This document shows positions 7,132 through 53,446 of a stretch of DNA of 64,000 nt, piece after piece. The DNA is from Streptomyces durocortorensis (GTDB lineage Bacteria > Actinomycetota > Actinomycetes > Streptomycetales > Streptomycetaceae), in assembly GCF_031760065.1 (NCBI RefSeq), contig NZ_CP134500.1:1984001-2048000 (forward strand), in the 5' to 3' direction. Each line of letters opens with the position of its first letter. Position 1 is the first letter of the stretch. Made by a program: the position numbers and the translations under genes. The notes below the pieces were generated by a model, which saw only the letters and a program-made list of their open reading frames with translations, was not told where the DNA came from and made no database searches.

Positions 7132-8030
7132 TGATGCTGGAATTCCTGAACCCTCCCTTCATGCAGCGGGCGCTCATCGCGGCCGTCCTGGTCGGCATCA
7201 CCGCGCCCGCCATCGGCATCTACCTGGTGCAGCGCCGGCAGGCCCTGATGGGCGACGGCATCGGGCACATCGCGATGACCGGGGTCGGCCTCGGCTTCCT
7301 GCTCTCCACCAGCCCCGTGTGGATGGCCACCGCCGTCGCCGTGGCCGGTGCGGTCGTCATGGAGCTGATCCGCTGGTACGGACACACGCGCGGCGATCTC
7401 GCCCTGGCGATGCTGTTCTACGGCGGTATGGCGGGCGGCGTGATGCTGATCAACCTGTCCGACACGGGTTCCAACGCCAACCTGACCTCGTACCTCTTCG
7501 GATCGCTCTCCACGGTCTCCGACGAGGACGTCATCGCGATCTGCGCGCTGGCCGCCTTCGTGGTGCTGATCACCGTGGGGCTGCGGCGGCAGCTGTTCGC
7601 CGTCAGCCAGGACGAGGAGTTCGCCCGGGTGACCGGGCTGCCGGTGCGGGTGCTGAACCTGCTGGTCGCGGTCGTGGCCGCGGTGACCGTGACCGTCGCG
7701 ATGCGGGTCGTCGGGCTGCTGCTGGTCAGCGCGCTGATGGTGGTGCCGGTGGCGGCCGCCCAGCAGATCACCAAGTCCTTCAAGGTGACCTTCGTGCTTT
7801 CCGTGGCGATCGGCACGGCGGTGACCCTGACCGGCACCGTGACCTCGTACTACCAGGACGTTCCGCCGGGGGCGACCATCGTGCTGCTGGCCATCGCGGT
7901 GTTCGTCGCGCTGACCGCGCTCGCCGCTCCGCTCGCGAAACACCGGGCCCGGGCGAGCGCGGCGAGGGAGGCAGAGTGCACCCTGGAGGTACCGGCCGCC
8001 CGCCGGGGCACGGACGACGTGCACGTGTGA
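7131..8030 (+). CDS. znuB: zinc ABC transporter permease
   Basis: 299 residues of the ABC-3 (ZnuB/TroC) permease family with eight or so membrane segments. It has the characteristic QRRQALMGDGIGHIAMTGVG block and RVVGLLLVSALMVVPVAAAQ. It forms the inner channel for Zn2+ import. The start ATG overlaps the znuC stop. A second ATG follows immediately. The last codons and stop lie in a 24-nt direct repeat. Confidence 0.95.
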   Translation: MMLEFLNPPFMQRALIAAVLVGITAPAIGIYLVQRRQALMGDGIGHIAMTGVGLGFLLSTSPVWMATAVAVAGAVVMELIRWYGHTRGDLALAMLFYGGMAGGVMLINLSDTGSNANLTSYLFGSLSTVSDEDVIAICALAAFVVLITVGLRRQLFAVSQDEEFARVTGLPVRVLNLLVAVVAAVTVTVAMRVVGLLLVSALMVVPVAAAQQITKSFKVTFVLSVAIGTAVTLTGTVTSYYQDVPPGATIVLLAIAVFVALTALAAPLAKHRARASAAREAECTLEVPAARRGTDDVHV

Positions 8031-8065
8031 CGACGTCCCGCCGTGCACGTGTGACGGCGTCACAC
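8018..8065 (+). repeat. 24-nt tandem duplication across the znuB stop
   Basis: CGTGCACGTGTGACGACGTC (8018-8037) recurs at 8042-8061 with one change, period 24. A degraded third copy begins at 8066. The first unit contains the znuB TGA (8028-8030). Confidence 0.85.
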
Positions 8066-8143
8066 CGTACGTGTGCGCCTGAGGCACCCGGGCGGGCTGG
8101 CACAATGGCCCGACACATGTACGGGCGACACGAGGAGGCACCT

Positions 8144-8578
8144 GTGGCCACGGCGCCGATCAGTGGCACGAACGCAGCGCCGGTACGCGGCCGGTCCACC
8201 CGGCAGCGGGCGGCGGTGGCGGCGGCGCTCGACGAGGTCGACGAGTTCCGCAGCGCCCAGGAGCTGCACGACGTCCTCAAGCACCGCGGCGACTCCGTGG
8301 GCCTGACCACGGTCTACCGGACCCTTCAGTCCCTCGCCGACGCGGGCGAGGTCGATGTGCTGCGCACCACCGAGGGCGAGGCCGTCTACCGGCGCTGCTC
8401 GACCGGTGACCACCACCATCACCTGGTCTGCCGGCTCTGCGGCAAGGCGGTGGAGGTCGAGGGCCCGGCCGTCGAGCAGTGGGCCGAGACGATCGCCGCC
8501 CAGCACGGCTATGTCAACGTCGCGCACACTGTCGAGATCTTCGGGACGTGTGCGGAGTGCGCCGAGAAGAAGGCGTAG
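8144..8578 (+). CDS. zur: zinc uptake regulator, Fur family
   Basis: 144 residues. N-terminal winged helix (STRQRAAVAAALDEVDEFRS, then VGLTTVYRTLQSLADAGEVD), then the metal-binding dimerisation domain with DHHHHLVCRLCGKAVEVEG and FGTCAEC. The two CxxC pairs form the structural zinc site. The GTG at 8144 is chosen because GAGGAGG precedes it. ATG 8117 would add nine residues. It represses zinc uptake genes when zinc is replete; the boxes at 5171-5207 are its expected target. It ends at a strong bidirectional hairpin. Confidence 0.96.
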   Translation: MATAPISGTNAAPVRGRSTRQRAAVAAALDEVDEFRSAQELHDVLKHRGDSVGLTTVYRTLQSLADAGEVDVLRTTEGEAVYRRCSTGDHHHHLVCRLCGKAVEVEGPAVEQWAETIAAQHGYVNVAHTVEIFGTCAECAEKKA

Positions 8579-8589
8579 GAGACATCAGG

Positions 8590-8627
8590 AAGGGGCGGGC
8601 CCGGTACGCGTACCGGGCCCGCCCCTT
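8590..8627. terminator. 18-bp bidirectional terminator between zur and uppS
   Basis: Perfect 18-bp arms (8590-8607 and 8610-8627) with a 2-nt loop. They begin AAGGGG and end CCCCTT, so T-runs exist on both strands. The hairpin lies between convergent zur and uppS. Confidence 0.88.
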
Positions 8628-8631
8628 TCCG

Positions 8632-51548: not shown

Positions 51549-52368
51549 GCAGCCCCGGCCCCGTGTGCGCACCGATCACCGCGCCGACCTCGCTGACGTG
51601 CAGGTCGACCAGACCGGGGACACGTTCGCGCAGCCGCTCCGCCAGGCGGTCGGCGCGGTCCGGAGCAGCGAGGTGGTGGACGGCGATGTCCACCGCCGCT
51701 TCGCCCGCACGCTCGGCCACGATCTCCTCCAGGCGGGCAATCGCCTTGGACGCCGTCCTTACCTTCTCCAGCAGCTCGATCCGGCCTCCGTCGAGCTCCA
51801 GGATCGGCTTCACCGCCAGGGCGGACCCCAGCAGGGCCTGGGCCGTGCCGATACGGCCGCCCCGGCGCAGATAGTCCAGCGTGTCGACATAGAAGTAGGC
51901 GGACGTCCCGGCCGCCCGCTTCTCCGCGGCCGCCGCCACCTCGTCCAGGCCGCCCCCCGCCTCCGCCGCCTCCGCCGCCGCGAGGGCGCAGAATCCGAGG
52001 GCCATGGCTACCATGCCGGTGTCCACCACCCGTACCGGGATGGGGGCGTCCTTCGCCGCGAGCAGCGCCGCGTCGTACGTGCCTGAGAACTCCGCCGAAA
52101 GGTGCAGCGACACCACGGCGTCGGCCCCGCCAACTGCCGCCGCCCGGTAGGCCGCCGCGAAGACCTCGGGGCTCGGGCGGGACGTGGTCACGGAGTGGCG
52201 TTTCTGCAGCGCCAGGGCGAGTGAACGGGCCGAGATCTCCGTGCCCTCCTCCAGCGCCTGATCGCCCAGGACGACGGTCAGCGGCACCGCGGTGATGCCG
52301 TGCCGTTCCATCGTCGGGCGCGGCAGATAGGCCGTGGAATCGGTGACGACAGCGACATGGCGGGACAT
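51523..52368 (-). CDS. degV: DegV-family fatty-acid-binding protein
   Basis: 281 residues. VAVVTDSTAYLPRPTMERHG is the N-terminal DegV motif with the Asp/Ser that contact the carboxylate, followed by VTTSRPSPEVFAAAYRAA, VVSLHLSAEFSGTYDAALLA, VVDTGMVAMALGF, YLRRGGRIGTAQALLGSALA and KPILELDGG. It presents fatty acids, for example to a fatty acid kinase FakA; no fakA is in this window. The ATG at 52368 is chosen; the longer frame begins at 52428. Confidence 0.93.
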   Translation of the reverse strand: MSRHVAVVTDSTAYLPRPTMERHGITAVPLTVVLGDQALEEGTEISARSLALALQKRHSVTTSRPSPEVFAAAYRAAAVGGADAVVSLHLSAEFSGTYDAALLAAKDAPIPVRVVDTGMVAMALGFCALAAAEAAEAGGGLDEVAAAAEKRAAGTSAYFYVDTLDYLRRGGRIGTAQALLGSALAVKPILELDGGRIELLEKVRTASKAIARLEEIVAERAGEAAVDIAVHHLAAPDRADRLAERLRERVPGLVDLHVSEVGAVIGAHTGPGLLGAVISVR

Positions 52369-52480
52369 GTGCCGGAGGTTACCTGGCGTACCGGGAGTGC
52401 GGCAGCCCGGCCCCGGGCCTCTGATCATTCATGGTCACTTCGGAACGTATGCGGTCGGAGCGCTTCCCGGATCGCGTACG

Positions 52481-53281
52481 TCAGTTCGTCGTTTCCGGCC
52501 GGGCGGACTTCTCCCACGGGTAGCTCGTGCGCTTCCGCGGGTCCGGTGCGGTGATCGCCTGCGGGGCCTCTTCGCCGGCCTGACCGGCCCAGGCCTCGTC
52601 GGCCGTGCTGCTGCTTCCGGCCGAGGCGGCCGGTTCGGGCCAGTCCGTTCCGGGGCCGTGGCCGGGGGTCGTGGACGTCCCGGGGCCGTGGCCCGGGGTC
52701 GCGGACGCCCCGGCACCCGGTGCACGCGACGGCTCCTCGACGGTCCAGTGCCGCAGCGCACCGGCCTCGACGTCGATCTGTGCGTTCAGCGCGTCCAGGT
52801 CGTCGTCGGCGAACTGCCGCGCCCGGTCCCGCGCCGCCCAGCGCAGCGACTCCGCCGAGTGCGTGATCCGCTGGGTCCGCTCCTTCAGCTGGGGCAGCAG
52901 GGCCGCGACCGTCGACCGGTCCGGCTCGCGCTCCAGCCGCTTCAGCTCGTCGTCCAGCTCAAGGCCGTGCGCGCTCAGCCGCCGGAAGAGCGCCACCGAC
53001 TCCGAGAGCGAGGCGTCCTCCGCCACACCGGCGTGCAGGGCGTCCTGGGTGGCGCGCATCGACGTCCGCAGGGCGAGCCGGAGCTGTGCGAGCTCGCCGA
53101 CGACACCGGGCTGGCCGAAGCTCTTGGCCCGGAGCGTGGTGTCCTCCACGGTGCGGCGGGCCTGCGTGATCGTGCGGTCCACGCCCCGCTTGGCCGCGCC
53201 GACGACCTTCACGGTCACGTAGACGCCCAGCGCGATGAACGCGACGAAGAGCAGCGCCAGGATCGTGATCGCGGCTTCCAT
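52481..53281 (-). CDS. membrane-anchored coiled-coil protein of unknown function
   Basis: 266 residues. One N-terminal membrane segment (ITILALLFVAFIALGVYVTV) is followed by long helices (about 30-175; ELAQLRLALRTSMRATQDAL, LDDELKRLEREPDRSTVAAL) likely to form a coiled coil on the cytosolic side, and a Gly/Pro/Thr-rich tail with a tandem TPGHGPGT motif. I recall homologues only as conserved Streptomyces proteins without an assigned role. Located between leuS and degV on the same strand. Confidence 0.75.
   Translation of the reverse strand: MEAAITILALLFVAFIALGVYVTVKVVGAAKRGVDRTITQARRTVEDTTLRAKSFGQPGVVGELAQLRLALRTSMRATQDALHAGVAEDASLSESVALFRRLSAHGLELDDELKRLEREPDRSTVAALLPQLKERTQRITHSAESLRWAARDRARQFADDDLDALNAQIDVEAGALRHWTVEEPSRAPGAGASATPGHGPGTSTTPGHGPGTDWPEPAASAGSSSTADEAWAGQAGEEAPQAITAPDPRKRTSYPWEKSARPETTN
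52651..52710 (-). repeat. 2 x 30-nt coding repeat
   Basis: 52651-52680 and 52681-52710 are 27/30 identical (core CGGGGCCGTGGCC) and encode the repeated TPGHGPGT in the tail of the coiled-coil protein. Confidence 0.88.
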
Positions 53282-53344
53282 GAATGCCCCTCGGTTTCTC
53301 GATGCGGCCCGCCGATACCGGTCGCCCCCTCCACCGTAAACGGA

Positions 53345-53387
53345 ACGGGCAGGCCGAGGGTTCCTTCGGAACCCCCAACCTGCCCGT
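53345..53387 (-). terminator. leuS terminator hairpin
   Basis: ACGGGCAGG/CCTGCCCGT outer stem and GGGTTCC/GGAACCC inner stem with small internal loops, about 55 nt beyond the leuS stop. Confidence 0.8.
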
Positions 53388-53403
53388 AGGGGATGGCCCT
53401 AAC

Positions 53404-53446
53404 CATCCGCAAAGGCCATCACGCCACCCGCAAGAACCGTCACGCG
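53404..53446 (-). repeat. 21-nt imperfect repeat at the leuS stop
   Basis: 53404-53425 and 53425-53446 match at 16/22 positions (CCATCACGCC versus CCGTCACGCG). The second contains the leuS TGA (53440-53442). Confidence 0.65.

Follow-up and report, generated by a model that had tools for sequence, protein, structure and literature searches.

Small tandem duplications in the 3' flanks of genes of Streptomyces durocortorensis and related actinomycetes

In 2007, Messer and Arndt reportedly described short insertions as tandem duplications of adjacent sequence; theirs was the human genome, whereas the case considered here concerns a bacterium, in which selection would set the map of such copies. 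It comes from a 64,000-nucleotide (nt) stretch of the Streptomyces durocortorensis chromosome (hereafter, the window; positions 1984001-2048000 of NZ_CP134500.1, the single contig of the 7.3-Mb source genome), in which a first-pass annotation had noticed direct repeats that straddle or abut the stop codons of 14 genes. In prokaryotes, close direct repeats have been reported to be mostly over-represented in intergenic regions, with pairs of identical 10-mers no more than 50 nt apart being mostly over-represented between genes and weakly under-represented within them, and clustered repeats to be fewer in thermophiles (PMC4060949). The window repeats are like those of this survey in that close direct copies favour intergenic DNA, but 3' polarity, duplicated stops, and species-level gain and loss do not figure in the parts of it that we consulted. 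Among the titles and abstract beginnings met in searches of an open-licence library, none described, for Streptomyces, duplicated stops or a bias of repeats to the 3' side of genes.

The duplication pattern in 3' flanks is real, strong, and partly recent. To set the window in context, it was joined with the next 2.0 Mb of the chromosome, and the resulting 2.064 Mb, in which 1665 genes were called, was scanned for tandem repeats with an ungapped search by lag (match +1, mismatch -2). Because genes were called with our own codon-usage script, gene starts are approximate; spacer-class counts exclude spacers longer than 800 nt, and the expected count for lags of 12-30 nt was obtained from four shuffles of the spacers with dinucleotides kept. 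At lags of 12-30 nt, 94 tandem repeats lie within 100 nt past stops (1.02 per kb), against 0.2 expected in shuffled spacers, and the same scan yields 0.21 per kb in divergent spacers and 0.11 per kb in coding DNA. When lags of 5-150 nt are considered, a repeat is centred within 120 nt of 191 of the 1192 gene ends with a spacer of at least 30 nt. The stop itself can be part of the copied unit: the last 11 nt plus the stop recur downstream, with at most two mismatches, at 45 of 1137 ends with a spacer of at least 40 nt (shuffles, 1.0 +/- 1.0), and control 14-mers from the same ends recur in 9 cases when taken from -28 to -14 and in one when taken from -64 to -50. Within the window, each of the 41 gene ends whose spacer is at least 20 nt long was tested by setting the best ungapped self-match near its stop (lags 12-30) against 400 dinucleotide-shuffled versions, and 43 start codons were treated with 200 shuffles. 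The match reached p<0.01 at 9 and p<0.05 at 15 of the 41 ends, compared with 1 and 4 of the 43 starts. By eye, the listed repeat units appear to differ from gene to gene, whereas dispersed palindromic repeats of the REP/BIME kind would show one sequence at many loci of a genome.

The stop codon had been singled out as the focus of the repeats, a view that the positional data do not uphold. At convergent ends, 14-mers that recur 14-50 nt further downstream make up 0.0-0.9% from -120 to -36; their share climbs to 1.4% at -22 and 4.3% at -8, is 4.6-5.2% from +6 to +48, and stays at 1.8-4.4% between +62 and +188. Same-strand ends go from 0.2-0.6% upstream to 2.1% at -8 and 3.6% at +6, and drop to 0.4-1.7% beyond +104. 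In the DNA preceding divergent starts, 0.1-1.0% of 14-mers recur. Within convergent gaps of 220-800 nt, the density of repeats with lags not divisible by three is 0.73 per kb in the first 50 nt from the stop (6 in 8.2 kb), 0.61 per kb at 50-100 nt (5 in 8.2 kb), and 0.51 per kb beyond 100 nt (8 in 15.8 kb). Given a step followed by a plateau, and the nearly flat density in long gaps, the stop is an edge rather than a peak, and a stop-centred peak was rejected, although the higher density of short convergent gaps gives scope for some influence of gene ends.

Lineages were compared through their 3' zones at lags of 5-60 nt. In 80 comparison loci from other genomes, 79 of them titled Streptomyces, 92 repeats were counted in 60.2 kb of 3' zone versus 12 in 59.8 kb of divergent spacers; being orthologous neighbourhoods, these loci are not fully independent. 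Repeats are also plentiful in five genomes of the same genus (17 per 15.6 kb), in the order-level relative G120 (10 per 4.9 kb), and in the class-level relative G114 (7 per 4.0 kb). None were found in G093 (2.8 kb), Rhodococcus pRHL1 (1.0 kb), Escherichia coli (4.2 kb), Sinorhizobium (5.0 kb), Thermus (1.5 kb), or Methylorubrum (2.3 kb), and one each in Cupriavidus (4.4 kb) and Azospirillum (2.3 kb), these control samples being small and, apart from E. coli, G093, G114, and G120, plasmids or megaplasmids, and gene calling being poor in Methylorubrum (58% called coding) and Rhodococcus (51%). The suspected lineage bias is thus borne out, with Streptomyces and two other actinomycetes rich in repeats and eight other samples near zero; however, all repeat-rich samples are actinomycetes with a guanine-plus-cytosine (GC) content of at least 70%, and GC and lineage are confounded. 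Coding repeat density does not track the 3' pattern: G093 carries 31 coding tandem repeats in 128 kb, denser than Streptomyces coding DNA, and has none in its 3' zones.

Reading frame separates coding repeats from those at stops. In coding DNA, the lag is a multiple of three in 362 of 378 repeats, whereas the lags of 44 stop-straddling repeats split 10/21/13 modulo three, in agreement with the earlier exclusion of protein selection as their cause. The offsets of the copied stops are distributed 17/17/11 modulo three over the 45 ends, and straddlers in the 80 loci 7/5/14, so that the second stop shows no frame preference and a role as an in-frame backup was rejected. Nor do periods cluster at 20-26 nt, as had been claimed: lags are broad, mostly 5-35 nt, with 19, 21, 23, 21, 17, 11, and 9 of the 3'-zone lags in successive 5-nt bins from 5 nt.

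Comparison of orthologs revealed single-copy sites in relatives, in line with the proposal of species-specific events. Over 51 close pairs, 31 distinct repeats were located in gaps containing a 3' end, of which 17 are common to no close partner and 9 to all. An 18-nt duplication in L204 corresponds to a single copy in L202, L205, and L207, and the duplication at the recO end in L182 and L184 to a single-copy site in L186. The copies are adjacent, in direct orientation, and missing at the same site in relatives, which is the pattern sought for slipped-strand events. At the end of the 44640 gene, four different repeats were found in four of six genomes, namely, the weak one of the window (15 nt, across the stop, 44628..44655, plus strand, nominal p=0.045) and others in G029, G052, and G023.

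The history of such a site can be followed at recO, where the window carries a 21-nt repeat at the stop (9566-9568; repeat 9535..9567, minus strand, p=0.002) and the nearest named relatives, among the matches listed, are Streptomyces, including S. durocortorensis, S. anulatus, and S. rubiginosohelvolus. In a tree of 25 rows (the spacer not being measurable in L190, L195, and G023), the recO spacer, stop included, spans 24-25 nt in 9 of the 13 measured genomes outside one clade of nine (support 99) and 64-96 nt in eight members of that clade. S. anulatus (L183) has three copies of a 20-nt unit holding the stop, and other members have decayed copies. The ninth member, L186, which groups as sister to the window with support 98, has a spacer of 24 nt, for which either copy loss or recombination with a short allele would do. 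Other expansions were observed in L188 (82 nt) and in L189, L191, and L198 (38 nt each). The expanded spacer of the window also contains a 30-bp palindrome at 9500..9529 (strand unassigned; GGACCCACC-loop-GGTGGGTCC), which L181 also has in its recO spacer, its loop there having the opposite orientation, and which was not seen in the recO spacers of L182-L187. A search for the pattern gave a single match in the own genome and matches in one of 60 other same-genus genomes. Hairpin-loop inversion and independent gain are both possible, because the window and L181 are not sisters.

Conservation appears to differ between divergent gaps and 3' flanks. The window was compared with four relatives whose coding identity is 87-93%, with 3-20 gaps available for each class in each relative. 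Identity is 77-84% in divergent gaps and 49-58% in the first 60 nt past stops, and aligned random sequence gives 57%. Conservation of divergent gaps and random-level identity of 3' flanks mean that selection against insertions and deletions (indels) in genes and promoters could shape the map. Small tandem duplications of ~5-50 nt would arise along the chromosome, the mutational step most likely being slipped-strand mispairing at short direct repeats of 3-9 nt. In genes, any unit whose length is not a multiple of three would shift the reading frame, and near promoters the copies would alter spacing, whereas a unit including the stop would have no effect on the protein, whose original stop is retained in the first copy. 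With harm in genes and promoters and none past the stop, survivors would build up in the 3' flank, beginning at the stop, the copies decaying by substitution and being gained and lost between species. We consider such general slipped-strand duplication, tolerated in 3' flanks and removed by selection from genes and promoters, to be the probable explanation of the pattern, although both slippage as the mutational step and tolerance alone as the source of the 3' bias are inferred. Junctions were examined in perfect two-copy repeats of noncoding DNA, of which the own genome and the 80 loci gave 57 distinct cases at lags of 14-60, after omission of 16 coding or noncoding repeats with nearly three or more copies. 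Extra homology of at least 3 nt is present in 32 of the 57, with 8% expected, which fits slipped mispairing for most perfect repeats and leaves room for end joining.

Loops of 10-50 nt lie outside the usual range of MutS repair. NucS, which mediates actinobacterial mismatch repair without MutS and MutL, is reported to be unable to correct indels (PMC8228993). The own genome (G000) is like that system in having NucS and lacking a MutS match, but so are the others: Ku and NucS were matched in all four, and MutS in none, of G000, G120, G114, and G093. Since G093, with no repeats in 2.8 kb of 3' zone, has the same set, lack of MutS and presence of NucS and Ku do not separate rich from poor genomes.

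Several observations weigh against duplication along the chromosome followed by selective removal. The comparison of gap conservation is small, and 12 sister pairs give no clear sign of stronger conservation in divergent gaps: aligned-column identity (coding flanks included) is 0.92 in both codirectional and divergent gaps and 0.84 in convergent ones, and the gaps whose length differs by at least 5 nt number 39 of 73 (codirectional), 11 of 25 (divergent), and 7 of 10 (convergent). None of 126 indels of at least 8 nt in these pairs passed a strict tandem test, and a looser one was passed by 9 of 95 indels in 3'-containing gaps and 0 of 31 in divergent gaps; accordingly, tandem duplication as the bulk of 3'-spacer change is not borne out. 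The lags in 3' zones lean slightly to multiples of three (61/44/39). Convergent gaps shorter than 220 nt are denser in repeats with lags not divisible by three (1.51 per kb vs 0.5-0.7 in long gaps), so a mild gene-end effect may persist. Finally, junction homology is absent from 15 of the 57 perfect repeats, so fill-in and end joining, for example, may be a second source of copies.

End joining could also be the main route, staggered breaks being filled in and joined by Ku and LigD under the same tolerance filter. The 15 homology-free junctions and the Ku gene of the own genome speak for it, but we regard it as improbable in view of the homology at 32 junctions and of G093, where Ku coexists with empty 3' zones. 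Alternatively, gene ends may be mutational hotspots at which transcription termination or conflict between replication and transcription triggers duplication, as suggested by repeat density, which is highest just past stops and in short convergent gaps (1.51 vs 0.51-0.73 per kb in long ones), and by the greater richness of convergent than codirectional ends. Against this, repeat density hardly changes along long convergent gaps as one moves away from the stop, and replication strand, assigned from an origin located via dnaA, shows no effect (leading vs lagging, 1.95 vs 1.87 and 1.31 vs 1.21 per kb). Hairpins are no stronger at repeat-bearing ends (-5.18 +/- 0.68, n=152, vs -4.56 +/- 0.51, 250 sampled of 818), and effects of hairpins and replication strand were both rejected, which makes a hotspot rather unlikely. 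The idea of lineage-specific slippage at gene ends survives in part: the slippage-like origin (from junction homology), the species-specific events, and the lineage bias are supported, and the process acting at gene ends is not. Similarly doubtful is a variant in which small duplication is unusually active in Streptomyces and its GC-rich actinomycete relatives, copies 3' flanks, often with stops, so that spacers lengthen clade by clade, and has an extra trigger at transcript ends.

A selected element, with duplicated stops as backups or repeats shaping mRNA 3' ends, is very improbable: although the stop and last codons are copied at 45 of 1137 ends, there is neither frame preference nor hairpin association, and the repeats are species-specific and therefore not maintained by selection. 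That GC-rich low complexity alone produced the self-similarity by chance has a negligible likelihood. The first 100 nt past stops do have a GC content of 0.69-0.74, and the terB-like and leuS ends fall within chance, but shuffles that preserve dinucleotides give 0.2 against 94 repeats and 1.0 against 45 copied stops, which refutes chance as a general explanation, and relatives hold single-copy versions of the sites.

The individual window repeats, with gene identities verified by Pfam and arrays additionally detected by Tandem Repeats Finder (TRF), differ in strength. Besides recO, six of the 14 listed genes have strong repeats (p<=0.005) at the expected lag, so the first-pass annotation was right for about half of its list. 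Tandem duplications of 24 nt across the znuB stop (8028-8030; 8018..8068, plus strand, p=0.002; TRF 8018-8075) and of 22 nt across the uppS stop (8657-8659; 8632..8671, minus strand, p=0.002) are among them; the znuB 3' spacer is short in L184, L185, and L187, and the uppS duplication was not seen in the five relatives compared. Repeats of 20 nt and 21 nt cross the stops of the pfkB-like gene (19876..19913, minus strand, p=0.005; TRF) and of the rnz-like metallo-beta-lactamase (MBL) gene (23796; 23759..23808, minus strand, p=0.002; TRF 23759-23814), respectively, and 14-nt repeats occur across and past the degV stop (51458..51546, minus strand, p=0.002; TRF). At the lepA end, described earlier as three copies at 24-26 nt, TRF gives an array of ~25 nt with three to four imperfect copies (lag 24; 40484..40578, minus strand, p=0.002). 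Five further genes reach nominal or borderline values: the 44640 gene, yceI (26 nt at the stop, 44684..44720, minus strand, p=0.020), DUF3097 (past the stop, 31508..31538, plus strand, p=0.015, with lag 22 instead of the claimed 25), rsmE (p=0.050, with the match at +42 having lag 16 instead of 19), and, weakly, the MBL gene ending at 30575 (lag 26 as claimed, 30569..30603, plus strand, p=0.052). The terB-like (p=0.13) and leuS (p=0.22) repeats are no better than chance.

Three repeats add to the earlier list: a 22-nt repeat past the Competence/ComEC-like gene 47463 (47404..47446, minus strand, p=0.002; TRF), a 12/24-nt array downstream of gene 50129 (50009..50092, minus strand, p=0.002; TRF), and an 18-nt array of ~4 copies directly past the znuA stop (6265; 6266..6335, plus strand, TRF). 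The last scores 21 at lag 18 in the window versus 6-8 in five relatives, and is absent from the shuffle test of 41 ends because of where the znuC start was called. This start, at 6262, is probably too early; in the five relatives, a short post-znuA spacer is followed by a stretch resembling a ribosome-binding site and a start. Elsewhere in the window, two minus-strand tRNA matches with equal Rfam scores (60071-60143 and 60849-60921) lie ~780 nt apart.

For the biology of these bacteria, the repeats offer natural single- and multi-copy sites at which the growth of noncoding spacers in GC-rich genomes can be studied, and they caution against taking repeats at stop codons for signals unless a positional control is at hand. 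The rate of small duplication in actinomycetes and the genetics of its repair become testable in laboratory strains.

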